Both the position numbers and the translations under genes were made by a program. From assembly GCA_000242935.3 (NCBI GenBank), contig CP007053.1:7239001-7303000 (forward strand): a stretch of 64,000 nt of DNA, in the 5' to 3' direction. The notes under the pieces were generated by a model that saw only the letters and a list, made by a program, of their open reading frames with translations, did not search any database and was not told the origin of the DNA. Positions 2,696-58,440 of the stretch are shown in pieces (within the stretch, counting starts at the first letter, position 1; each line of letters opens with the position of its first letter). This DNA comes from Opitutaceae bacterium TAV5 (GTDB lineage: Bacteria > Verrucomicrobiota > Verrucomicrobiia > Opitutales > Opitutaceae).

Positions 2696-2725
2696 ATTAG
2701 TGTCCATCAGTGTCCATTAGTGTTT
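2696..2725. repeat. Solo arm of the ATTAGTGTCCAT repeat
   Basis: A 30-bp sequence beginning ATTAGTGTCCATCAGTG and ending TTAGTGTTT followed by A-rich sequence. It is nearly identical to the right-hand repeat that flanks the GxxExxY gene at 57116-57145. No opposing arm is seen here, so it looks like a solitary copy. It lies 40 bp before the M16 start. Confidence 0.75.
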
Positions 2726-44600: not shown

Positions 44601-44682
44601 AACCGCTAAAGGTCGCTAACGGACGCTAGACCGGATTTTTCCGATTGTCCGGTTTTTAGCGTCCGTTAGCGATCGTTAGCGC
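44601..44682. repeat. Inverted repeat of CGCTAACGGA-type units
   Basis: Left arm 44601-44630 starts AACCGCTAAAGGTCGCTAAC; right arm 44657-44682 is its near reverse complement (TTAGCGTCCGTTAGCGATCG). Same AACC start and A-rich border as the repeats at 2579 and 44724. The gap 44589-45011 holds this element and the next one and no gene. Confidence 0.85.
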
Positions 44683-54679: not shown

Positions 54680-54917
54680 ATTAGAGGATATTCTGGAGCT
54701 TATTCCAAATCGCTGCTCCGCATGCGTTGCCAATATCTGCGCAGTGACACGCCGAACCGCAAAATCTGCATGATGCTTGCGAATACCGACGCGAGAATCC
54801 GCGGGCCGTTCCGGTTGTCCTTTTCCGGTCTCCGCTTCCGCATTGGACATTCCTTCCCGCCGATGCTCACGTTGCATCCGTCACACACCGTACAATCCAC
54901 CCGCCACCTACGCCTCC

Positions 54918-56666
54918 ATGCGCATCGGCATTGCCCAGCTCAACACCACGGTCGGCGATCTCGCCGGCAACCGCCGCAAGATCCTCGACACCTACGCCAC
55001 TCTCGTCGAGCAGGGGGCGGAACTCGTCGTCTATCCCGAACTCGTGGTCTGCGGCTATCCTCCCCGCGACCTGCTTTTCAAAAGCCGCTTCGTCCCCGAC
55101 ACCGGGGAAAGTCTGGCCGCCATCGCCGCCGCCATCCGCGAGGTGCCCGCCCTCATCGGCACCGTCACCCGCAACCCTGCGCCCCATGGCCGGCCCTTCC
55201 TCAACGCCGCCGCCTTCTGCCAGCACGGAAAAATCCTCCACACCGCCCACAAGTGCCTGCTCCCCACCTACGACGTCTTTGACGAAGACCGTTATTTCGA
55301 ACCCGCCACCGCGCCGCTCGTCATCGACCACGCCGGCCACCGCATCGGCGTCACCATCTGCGAAGACATCTGGACGCACCCCGCGCTGCGCACCCGTCCG
55401 CTCTACCGGATCGACCCGGTGATGCTCCTTTCGTCCCAAAAACCCGACCTCATGCTCAACCTCTCCGCCAGCCCCTGGCAGCAGGAGAAGGCGAGCACGC
55501 GCGAGCAACTCGTCGCCAACACCGCCCGCGCCCTCCGCGCCCCGGTCGTCTATTGCAATGCCATCGGCGGGAACGACGAACTCGTTTTCGACGGCCGCAG
55601 CCTCGCCGTCGATGCCGGCGGCAACCTCCTTGCCACGCTCTCCGCCTTTCGCGAGGAGCTGCGCGTGGTCGAAATCCCGAAAGCAGGCGGGGCCGCTCCG
55701 CGCCTCCCCGCGGCAGCGGCAGCCTCCGCCGGAACCCGCCCTCCGGCTCCAGTCACGTCCGCCGCCCGCGAGCGGCCGGAACCCGCCCCGCCCCTCCCTC
55801 CCCCTCCTCCCCCGCATTCCGGCGAAGAGCTTGCCGACATCCACGACGCCCTGGTGCTCGGCCTGCGCGATTACGCCGGCAAGAGCGGTTTCCGGCGCGC
55901 CCTCATTGCCCTGTCCGGCGGCATCGACTCGGCGCTCGTGGCGGTGCTCGCCGTCGAGGCGTTCGGGGTGGACAATGTCACGGGCATCGCGCTCCCCTCC
56001 GCGATTTCCTCGCAACATTCCCGTGACGATGCCGCGGCGCTCGCCCGCAATCTCGGCATCCGTTTCGAGTCGCTCTCCATTGCCGGGCCCGTGGCCGCCA
56101 CCGAAGCCGCGCTCGCTCCGGTGTTCGCCGGATTGCCGCGCGACGTGGCCGAGGAAAACATCCAGGCGCGCCTCCGCGGCGTCCTCATGATGGCGCTCTC
56201 CAACAAGCTCGGCGCGCTCCTCCTCACCACCGGCAACAAGAGCGAGATCGCGGTCGGCTACTGCACACTTTACGGCGACATGTGCGGCGGCCTCGCCGTG
56301 ATCAGCGACGTTTTCAAGACGCAGGTCTATGCCCTTTGCCGGTGGATCAACCGCGACCGCGAGATCATCCCGCCCAACACGATCAGCAAGCCGCCCAGCG
56401 CCGAGCTCCGCCCCGGCCAGGTTGATCAGGACAGCCTCCCGCCGTACGACATCCTCGACGCCATCCTTCACGGTTATGTGGAGGAAGGCCTGTCGCGCGC
56501 CGAACTGGTCGCGCGCGGTTTCGATGCCGCCGTGGTCAACGACGTGGTCCGCAAGGTCGATCTCAACGAATACAAGCGCAAGCAGGCCGCCCCCGGCCTG
56601 AAGATCACCCCGCTCGCCTTCGGCGTCGGCCGCCGCATCCCCCTCGTCCAGAAATACGTGAGCTGA
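54918..56666 (+). CDS. nadE: Glutamine-hydrolysing NAD+ synthetase
   Basis: Makes NAD+ from deamido-NAD+ with ammonia released from glutamine. 582 residues. The N-terminal nitrilase domain has the triad Glu41 (VVYPEL), Lys112 (HTAHKCLLP) and Cys148 (VTICEDIW). A Pro/Ala-rich linker (~residues 255-300, [20 protein letters not shown]) joins it to the synthetase domain with the P-loop-like SGGIDSAL (from 333), [12 protein letters not shown] and [21 protein letters not shown]. Start at ATG 54918. The linker is longer than in most enzymes. Confidence 0.95.
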
Positions 56667-56686: not shown

Positions 56687-56716
56687 AACCACTAATGCAC
56701 ACTGATGGACACTAAT
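56687..56716. repeat. Left inverted repeat flanking the GxxExxY gene
   Basis: 30 bp starting AACCACTAATGCACACTGAT. Its reverse complement differs from the right copy (57116-57145) at about two positions. The GxxExxY start codon (56705) lies inside it. Confidence 0.9.
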
Positions 56717-57097
56717 AGCCGAACAACGGAACTGTATCAGGAAGAAGGTTACAACTTCATGGCAGCGTGCTTTGAGGTGCACAACACGATGGGGGCCGGT
56801 TTTCTTGAAGAGGTTTATCAGGAAAGCCTCGAGATGGAACTCACCGATCGGGGTATCCCCTTCATTTCCAAACCTCGACTCCAGCTCTACTACAAAAACC
56901 GTCCGCTCAAAAAATACTACGAGGCCGACCTGATCATCATTGGAGAAATCCTTGTCGAACTCAAGGCGGTCAAAAAACTCCTTCCCGAACACGACGCCCA
57001 GCTCATCAACTACCTGAAAGCCACGCGCAAGCGCGTCGGTTATCTCGTCAACTTTTGTTCCTTTCCGCGCCTCGAATGGAAACGCCTCGTCAACTGA
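56705..57097 (+). CDS. GxxExxY family protein (PDDEXK-like nuclease fold)
   Basis: A 130-residue protein with the defining G-F-L-E-E-V-Y at 32-38 and, downstream, KKYYEADLIIIGEILVELKAVKKL, which contains the Asp and Glu-x-Lys of a PDDEXK-type active site (Asp75, Glu84, Lys86). The family occurs in many copies per genome in Verrucomicrobiota and Planctomycetota. Its biological role is unknown. The start codon lies within a 30-bp repeat and the gene ends 18 bp before the matching inverted copy, so the gene and its repeats look like one unit. Confidence 0.88.
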   Translation: MDTNSRTTELYQEEGYNFMAACFEVHNTMGAGFLEEVYQESLEMELTDRGIPFISKPRLQLYYKNRPLKKYYEADLIIIGEILVELKAVKKLLPEHDAQLINYLKATRKRVGYLVNFCSFPRLEWKRLVN

Positions 57098-57115
57098 TTC
57101 TCCAGCCCGCTCATC

Positions 57116-57145
57116 ATTAGTGTCCATAAGTGTCCATTAGTGGTT
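57116..57145. repeat. Right inverted repeat flanking the GxxExxY gene
   Basis: 30 bp starting ATTAGTGTCCATAAGTG and ending TTAGTGGTT, followed by an A-run and the hemL start five bases on. Pairs with 56687-56716; nearly identical to the solo copy at 2696-2725. Confidence 0.9.
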
Positions 57146-57150
57146 AAAAA

Positions 57151-58440
57151 ATGCCATCCACCGATCCTGTTTCCACCGACCTCTTCGCCCGGGCGAAAAA
57201 GCTCATTCCCGGCGGCGTCAACTCGCCCGTCCGCGCCTTCCGCTCGGTCGGCGGCGCGCCGTTTTTCGTCAAGGCCGCGCGCGGCGCCACGCTCGTCACC
57301 GCCGACGATCGCGAACTCGTCGACTTCGTCTGCACCTGGGGGCCCGCCATCCACGGGCACAACCATCCCGTGATCCGCGATGCCATCGCCGCCGCGCTCG
57401 GGCACGGCACCTCCTTCGGCACGCCCAACCCGTACGAGGTCGAGATGGCCGAGCTCATCGTCCGCTTTTTCCCCTCCATCGAAAAAGTCCGCATGTGCAA
57501 CAGCGGCACCGAAGCCACCATGACGGCCATCCGGCTCGCCCGCGGCTTCACCCGGCGCGACAAGATCATCAAGTTCTCCGGCTGCTACCACGGCCATTCC
57601 GACTCGCTCCTCATCAAGGCCGGCTCCGGCGCGCTCACCCACGGCAATCCCGACAGCGCCGGCGTCCCCGCCTCCTTTGCCCGGGAAACCGTCGTCCTGC
57701 CGTACAACGACCGCGACGCGCTCGAAGCCGCCTTCGCCGCCAATCCGCAACAAATCGCCGGCGTCATCATCGAACCCTTTTGCGGCAACGTCGGCTTTAT
57801 CATGCCCGACCCCGGCTACCTCGCCTTCCTCCGCAACCTCACCGCCCGCCACGGCGCCGTGCTCATTTTCGACGAGGTCATGACCGGCTTCCGCATCGCC
57901 CCCGGCGGCGTGCAGGAACGCGAATCGATCACCCCCGACCTCACCACCTTGGGAAAAATCATCGGCGGGGGCCTTCCTGTCGGCGCCATCGGCGGCCGCG
58001 CCGACATCATGGATCACCTCGCGCCCGACGGACCCGTCTACCAGGCCGGCACCCTCAGCGGCAACCCGCTCGCCATGGCGGCCGGCATCGCCTCGCTCCG
58101 TCTCCTCCGCGAACTCGATCCCTATGCGGGCCTCGACGCCCTCGGCCGCCGGCTCCGGGGCGCCGTCCTCGCCGCCGCCCGCGCCAAGGGCATCCCCGTG
58201 CAGGTGCCGCAATGCGGATCCATGTTCAGTATCTTTTTTACCGATACGCCGGTCCGCGATTACGCCACCGCCCTCAAGGGCGATGCGAAACGCTTCGCGC
58301 GCTTTTTTCATGCCTGCCTCGCCGGCGGCGTCTATCTCGCGCCCAGCGCGTACGAAGCCGGTTTCCTCAGCACCGCCCACGAGGGCTCCGCCATCGACCG
58401 CGCCTGCGAGGTCCTCTCCGCGGCGATCCGGGAGCTGTGA
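57151..58440 (+). CDS. hemL: Glutamate-1-semialdehyde 2,1-aminomutase
   Basis: PLP enzyme that makes 5-aminolevulinate in the C5 haem pathway. The 429 residues show [82 protein letters not shown] and the PLP lysine (Lys269) in [15 protein letters not shown]. Start at ATG 57151, only five bases after the right GxxExxY repeat, so the promoter must lie in or before that element. Ends next to another inverted repeat. Confidence 0.96.

Follow-up and report, generated by a model that had tools for sequence, protein, structure and literature searches.

Two described systems come closest to the element considered here. In the REPIN/RAYT system (PMC3116915), gene-less inverted doublets with a short spacer occur in several classes per genome, and each class is tied to a resident enzyme whose gene is itself flanked by the repeat. 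The 23S rRNA intervening sequence (PMC4990558) consists of a small ORF between terminal inverted repeats, is patchily distributed and is called selfish. The stretch of DNA analysed in this work, hereafter the window, comprises 64,000 nucleotides of the genome of Opitutaceae bacterium TAV5 and contains, between nadE and hemL, a unit that looks like a member of a little-noticed kind of tiny mobile element, encountered in many bacteria and some archaea.

The whole unit, consisting of left arm, gene and right arm, occupies positions 56687 to 57150 on the plus strand, where BLAST matches to copies at unrelated sites begin and stop. Its left arm (56687-56716, plus strand) opens with AACC, followed by the words CACTAAT, CACTGAT and CACTAAT (word starts 56690, 56700 and 56710; spacing 10,10), and its right arm (57116-57145) presents the words CACTAAT, CACTTAT and CACTAAT when read on the minus strand. 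Each arm of the window unit follows one grammar, namely AACC plus three 7-nt words CACTNAT that start every 10 nt. A previous sequence-only reading had described near-perfect inverted arms around an interior of about 400 bp filled by a PDDEXK-like GxxExxY gene that starts within one of them, and this anatomy is borne out: the arms are complementary at 28 of 30 positions (93%) and lie 399 nt apart, the interior holds one ORF (56705-57097, plus strand, 130 aa), which matches TIGR04256 and PF13366, and the ATG at 56705 is situated inside the left arm. The same in-frame ATG is present in the sister copies L008, L212 and L217, and an in-frame ATG inside the left arm is found in 21 of 80 units from the same genome and its relatives. 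Upstream lies nadE, coding for NAD+ synthase (54777-56666, plus strand; 672.6 bits to NF010588; putative ORF start as called), and downstream hemL (57151-58440, plus strand; 594.4 bits to TIGR00713), whose ATG is 5 nt beyond the right arm.

Related words occur elsewhere in the window. A gene-less CACTAAT arm at 2696-2725 (minus strand), which had been noticed before as a solo copy, is real and agrees with the right arm at 28 of 30 positions, but it is not alone, as it adjoins a gene-less inverted pair with the word CGCTAA at 2582-2679 (arms 2582-2607, plus, and 2654-2679, minus). A word search also detected a single CGCTAA triple word at 44656-44681 (minus strand). With up to 3 mismatches, the CACTAAT triple word has 36 copies in the genome, whereas the same pattern read backwards has 0, and these triple words are therefore not due to chance.

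The window protein shows a full-length family match, with 133.3 bits to NCBIfam TIGR04256 GxxExxY (cut-off 35) and 131 bits to Pfam PF13366 PDDEXK_3 (cut-off 22). These are the only family matches of the unit, and the Pfam search gives PF13366 only and not S23 (PF05635); both models cover the protein alone, and their match lines make no mention of repeats. Putative catalytic residues of this PD-(D/E)XK nuclease family member are E35, D75, E85, K87 and Q99, and by analogy with the superfamily E35, D75, E85 and K87 would participate in catalysis. Among 181 homologues, the corresponding E is present in 176, D in 177, E/D in 179 and K in 179. The median dN/dS of the GxxExxY protein is about 0.05, computed from the 92 pairs that gave finite values; synonymous sites are nearly saturated. 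AlphaFold predicts the structure of the window protein with confidence (mean pLDDT 94.2), and among PDB entries this model comes closest to the Cas4-like SSO0001 (Foldseek E 2.5e-4; VIA Z 9.2 over 99 residues), other VIA matches being SwaI (Z 7.5) and Hjc (Z 6.4). Cas4-like SSO0001, lambda exonuclease, Hjc resolvase and type II restriction enzymes have the PD-(D/E)XK core in common with GxxExxY, a likeness of fold only at 8-21% sequence identity, and because SSO0001 alone exceeds Z 8 among them, the fold matches give no function for GxxExxY. No match resulted when PDB chains were searched by sequence with the family profile; PADLOC defence models, applied to three proteins, gave nothing except a weak Cas4 match for one (E 0.009), and PHROGs gave nothing beyond one weak endonuclease match.

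Copies at unrelated sites define the ends of the unit. A second, broken copy in the same genome (G000:C1:2383392-2383859) matches at 83% over query positions 1788-2251, equal to 56687-57150 of the window, and a copy at G001:C132:19212-19694 matches at 81% over query positions 1788-2253. At unrelated sites, matches start at 56687 and end at 57150-57152, and such exact ends uphold the view that gene and inverted repeats form a discrete unit with gene-less relatives. Orthologous sites with and without the unit also exist, in line with the polymorphism among relatives that a mobile unit had been expected to show. Twenty nadE-hemL loci were returned, of which 6 did not have both genes and were left out; the unit is present in 4 of the remaining 14 (the own genome, G005, G010 and G009), no unit is found in 8, where 1-73 nt separate the two genes, and 2 have other content. 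The unit of G009 at this site carries CGCTAAT words. At that locus (L396), a 57-nt copy of the hemL 5' end (82%; positions 957-1013) precedes the unit and the real one (1487-1543) follows it.

At an orthologous site in Flavobacterium, for which 29 loci were read out of 294 matching genomes (265 unread), the unit is present in 17 loci and the gene is absent from 12; nine of these 12 have no arm, one has a short gene-less pair and two have a single arm. In the main match, the Flavobacterium protein is 82-89% identical across species. On a tree of the flanks, the filled state requires 3 changes, maybe one gain and two losses, gain and loss being indistinguishable.

Target duplications, for which the sequence-only reading had proposed to look, were not found: in 19 gene-less and 40 gene-bearing units there is no excess of direct flank repeats, TTAA or other. 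Insertion into palindromic (hairpin) targets was considered and discarded, as inverted complementarity beyond the arms stops within 2-4 nt in 19 gene-less pairs; in the 40 gene units, the inverted likeness of the flanks, summed over offsets 4-20, is slightly raised (5.75 vs 4.93) without forming an unbroken run. Spread by phages or plasmids is likewise dismissed for the A2-type protein, with which the searches were done: it matched 0 of 50,697 phage records and 8 of 72,556 plasmid records, the best of which carries radA and a thrA-type gene alongside and looks chromosomal. With the same protein, IMG/VR yielded 5 loci.

Inverted word arms are a frequent attribute of GxxExxY genes. The genome of the window has 9 GxxExxY matches at 8 loci, and inverted flank repeats of at least 20/24 accompany 6 of the 8 genes, mostly with different words, L005 and L007 being the exceptions. 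Considering this genome and its relatives, the gene is present in 27 of 38 genomes, and 74 of 101 genes in those 27 genomes have a flanking inverted repeat of at least 20/24 (101 of 114 matches were tested; 13 partial or duplicate matches were left out). At the same threshold, such repeats are seen in 1.7% of 10,100 mismatched flank pairs, in 2 of 193 windows displaced by 1 kb, and in 4 of 24 Y1 transposase genes (6 of 30 Y1 loci were too short and left out). The arms are not placed at random with respect to the genes, an association beyond chance that the sequence-only reading had supposed. In a collection-wide search over bacteria and archaea of many phyla, 50 of 75 loci reach at least 20/24 (5 of 80 loci near contig ends were dropped), compared with 444 of 5,550 mismatched pairs (8%), a higher chance level because words are common to loci.

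Gene lineages differ in arm word and spacing, and Flavobacterium arms have four direct word copies instead of three. Between genomes, arm likeness correlates with protein identity (80 arm-bearing genes; r 0.37, the maximum of 2,000 within-genome permutations being 0.11). When the closest protein in another genome is picked out, its arms are also the best match which that genome offers in 61 of 79 cases. The correlation is also expected from plain linkage and results in part from the linkage of arms and gene; recognition in trans is indicated more strongly by the dispersed copy classes. Alike arms were found in 5 of 132 gene pairs from the same genome, and in the genome of the window L002 and the broken L008 are the sole sister copies, so the proposal that amplification of the unit explains the high number of GxxExxY genes per genome mostly does not hold.

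Some loci deviate from the simple plan. L005 and L007 (G000:C1:5003436-5004194) are two GxxExxY domains in one 277-aa frame, the second of which no longer has the D and the ExK residues; word arms are missing from the pair, and copies of a palindromic CTCTGCGCCC element are found on both sides. The flanks of L006 (G000:C1:4232657-4232998), a gene with CACAAAA words, are apparently two whole short inverted elements and not single arms. Around the GxxExxY gene L243 (G027:C73:118564-120205), the triple word is repeated on either side at intervals of ~110-115 nt, always in the same orientation, an array that represents a local tandem amplification.

Genes for S23 / 23S_rRNA_IVP four-helix-bundle proteins (PF05635; L149, L150 and L355-L383) in the same genome and its relatives are also located between inverted word arrays. 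The S23 loci read are not in rRNA, and their arrays are tandem with a period of ~7 nt, such as AGTAGCG or GAGTCAG. At least 20/24 is reached in 21 of 31 S23 loci, two of which are short and counted as misses, compared with 2.0% of 930 mismatched pairs. As unrelated S23 genes have the same layout, the layout needs no nuclease.

Dispersed copies were sought with a degenerate triple word starting with ACCAC, a pattern blind to words such as CGC or GCCAC. Over 38 genomes it found 1,234 copies, compared with 4 for the backwards pattern; the median is 32 copies among the 27 gene-bearing genomes, one of which has none, and of the 11 genomes that lack the gene one has 4, one has 2 and nine have 0. The window's genome contributes 125 dispersed copies, and the 100 of them that were listed fall into three classes of word and spacing: a GGAT class with 37 members (spacing 9,10; one at 9,9), an RGAG-like class with 34 (8,8) and a TAAT-like class with 29 (10,10). 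These are the words and spacings of the resident genes L004 (GGAT), L001 (RGAG-like) and L002/L008 (TAAT-like). Among the same 100 copies, 38 pairs of neighbours lie within 1 kb of each other, every one of them inverted with its ACCAC ends outward; 36 of these pairs are gene-less with spans of 62-290 nt, and 2 hold the genes L004 and L001.

The largest class seen in this genome is CGCTAA, with 112 copies (control 1) and the spacing of CACTAAT, and no resident gene has such a word in its arms. At 1737710-1737891 and at 4836849-4837014, CACTAAT pairs enclose CGCTAA pairs. The copies listed for G024 do not have the words of that genome's own GxxExxY genes. Such orphan classes may have been left by lost genes or may be read by a sister protein, or they may be contrary to the model proposed below. 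Ten of 20 gene-less copies read are located inside larger ordinary MITEs (6 of 10 of the GGAT class and 4 of 10 of the RGAG class), so the copy number is in part due to something else. Six 84-nt GGAT-class elements (L336, L337 and L340-L343) lie within a larger repeat with TTAGAGC-like outer ends, two element types that spread together.

Conservation in Flavobacterium separates the words from their pairing. Across 17 orthologous units, the first two words of both arms always keep their letters C, C, A and G, and the linkers and the fourth letter vary. Words agree at 0.854 between arms of the same unit and at 0.843 between arms of different units (p 0.15), and linkers at 0.627 and 0.602, respectively (p 0.25), a coarse test since the 17 rows are related, two pairs of them closely. 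A co-evolution of arms that would keep pairing was therefore rejected, as the two arms of a unit are no more alike than arms taken from different units. Words and protein are conserved and arm-to-arm pairing is not, which favours words that would be read by a protein over the upkeep of a hairpin.

Taken together, the window unit is probably a REPIN/RAYT-like small mobile element in which a PD-(D/E)XK nuclease replaces the HUH transposase. We infer that the GxxExxY protein binds and cuts the arms and serves as the mover, its own unit included. The autonomous form would be a GxxExxY gene between two outward-facing arms, each with three (in Flavobacterium four) direct 7-nt words at fixed spacing. 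The encoded nuclease may bind the word arrays at both ends of the unit and cut or nick the DNA at the outer CCAC/GTGG or close to it, after which host repair might copy or join the unit elsewhere without target duplication. The gene may live on read-through, as it shares the strand of its upstream neighbour in 113 of 150 scorable units. Gene-less pairs that match the gene unit in word and spacing would be mobilized in trans, and each protein lineage would read its own word, so that several systems could coexist in one genome. Some observations speak against this model: no movement has been seen, the CGCTAA class is an orphan, the words of G024 do not fit its genes, L005 and L007 are armless, some gene-less copies are carried within larger ordinary MITEs, copy number tracks S23 and Y1 genes as well, and unrelated S23 genes have the layout too. 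The sequence-only reading of a GxxExxY gene with terminal inverted repeats as a small mobile unit is, as a whole, partly supported.

The gene might instead be a passenger, caught or kept for other reasons in MITE-like elements that another transposase, IS200-like Y1 or DDE, moves. Y1 genes are indeed present in 28 of the 38 genomes, yet G017 has 32 copies and no Y1 match, and G018 has four Y1 matches, no GxxExxY gene and 0 copies. Copy number correlates as well with S23 genes (rho 0.74) and with Y1 transposases (0.66); for GxxExxY the partial correlation is 0.59 once Y1 is accounted for and 0.43 once S23 is, and given GxxExxY those with Y1 and S23 are 0.42 and 0.40, so that partial correlations fail to isolate GxxExxY as the correlate of copy number. 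G005, for its part, has 73 copies without S23. The CGCTAA class without cognate gene, the gene-less copies within larger ordinary MITEs and a strong purifying selection, as for a host function, would all suit a passenger, whereas cognate word classes and a near-universally intact nuclease site are not expected of one, nor was a target duplication found; altogether we regard this explanation as rather unlikely.

Two further readings assign the arms to RNA or to regulation. In the former, the arms would pair in the transcript as in a 23S rRNA intervening sequence, RNase III would excise the unit from mRNA, so that insertions into operons are tolerated, and the protein would be a helper on the RNA side. 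The GxxExxY gene lies on the strand of its upstream neighbour in 113 of 150 scorable units and on that of its downstream neighbour in 108 of 150 (31 of 181 units were unscorable; neighbours are ORF calls). RNase III is reported to excise a Coxiella element (PMC4990558), and S23, the protein of the rRNA element, sits in similar repeats as mentioned, but the folds of S23 and GxxExxY differ, the latter is akin to DNA nucleases, and within a unit the two arms show no co-variation that would preserve pairing, which makes excision from RNA improbable. In the latter, the arms would be binding sites of an autoregulator or chromosome-organising protein, and dispersed pairs would be copied by ordinary recombination. 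Conserved words rather than pairing, start codons within arms and the long vertical retention in Flavobacterium agree with regulation, to which we nevertheless give little credence, as a regulator needs neither outward arms on both sides, nor exact boundaries at unrelated sites, nor a conserved nuclease site.

Returning to the REPIN/RAYT-like element, one may ask for a wider meaning. It is conceivable, at somewhat less than even chances, that a separate mobile world parallel to RAYT/REPIN exists in bacteria and archaea, in which stand-alone PD-(D/E)XK nucleases of ~130 residues move inverted word arrays, with a protein-to-word code (7-nt word plus spacing) that lets many systems share one chromosome. 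The repeat grammar gives GxxExxY, a family annotated across many phyla, a testable role, accounts for a large class of intergenic repeats that annotation pipelines would pass over without a name, and supplies DNA recognition with a ready specificity code of protein versus 7-nt word. In the open-licence literature, no link of the GxxExxY family to repeats was found, nor any of six repeat strings, and no function is stated where the family is named.

Among known systems, a DDE insertion sequence or classical MITE would be expected to produce a target-site duplication, and the units described here have none that we could find. To the 23S rRNA intervening sequence with its S23 (PF05635) ORF, the GxxExxY unit is similar in layout only; it encodes another protein family, resides between protein genes (nadE and hemL) and not in rRNA, and does not keep its pairing. 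REPIN/RAYT elements (PMC3116915, PMC8266576) seem to work alike, but the units here lack both an HUH enzyme and a GTAG tag, two features that define them. Their enzyme is an HUH (Y1) tyrosine transposase and the unit here encodes a PD-(D/E)XK protein; their repeat is one palindrome with GTAG, whereas here each arm has three or four direct 7-nt words and 0 of 80 units have GTAG/CTAC in both arms. The tie between repeat class and resident enzyme holds for the three classes of the 100 copies listed and not for CGCTAA or G024. Gene-less inverted doublets exist in both systems, and the elements here, too, leave no target duplication. If the proposed role of the nuclease is true, a REPIN-like life style has arisen with an unrelated enzyme.
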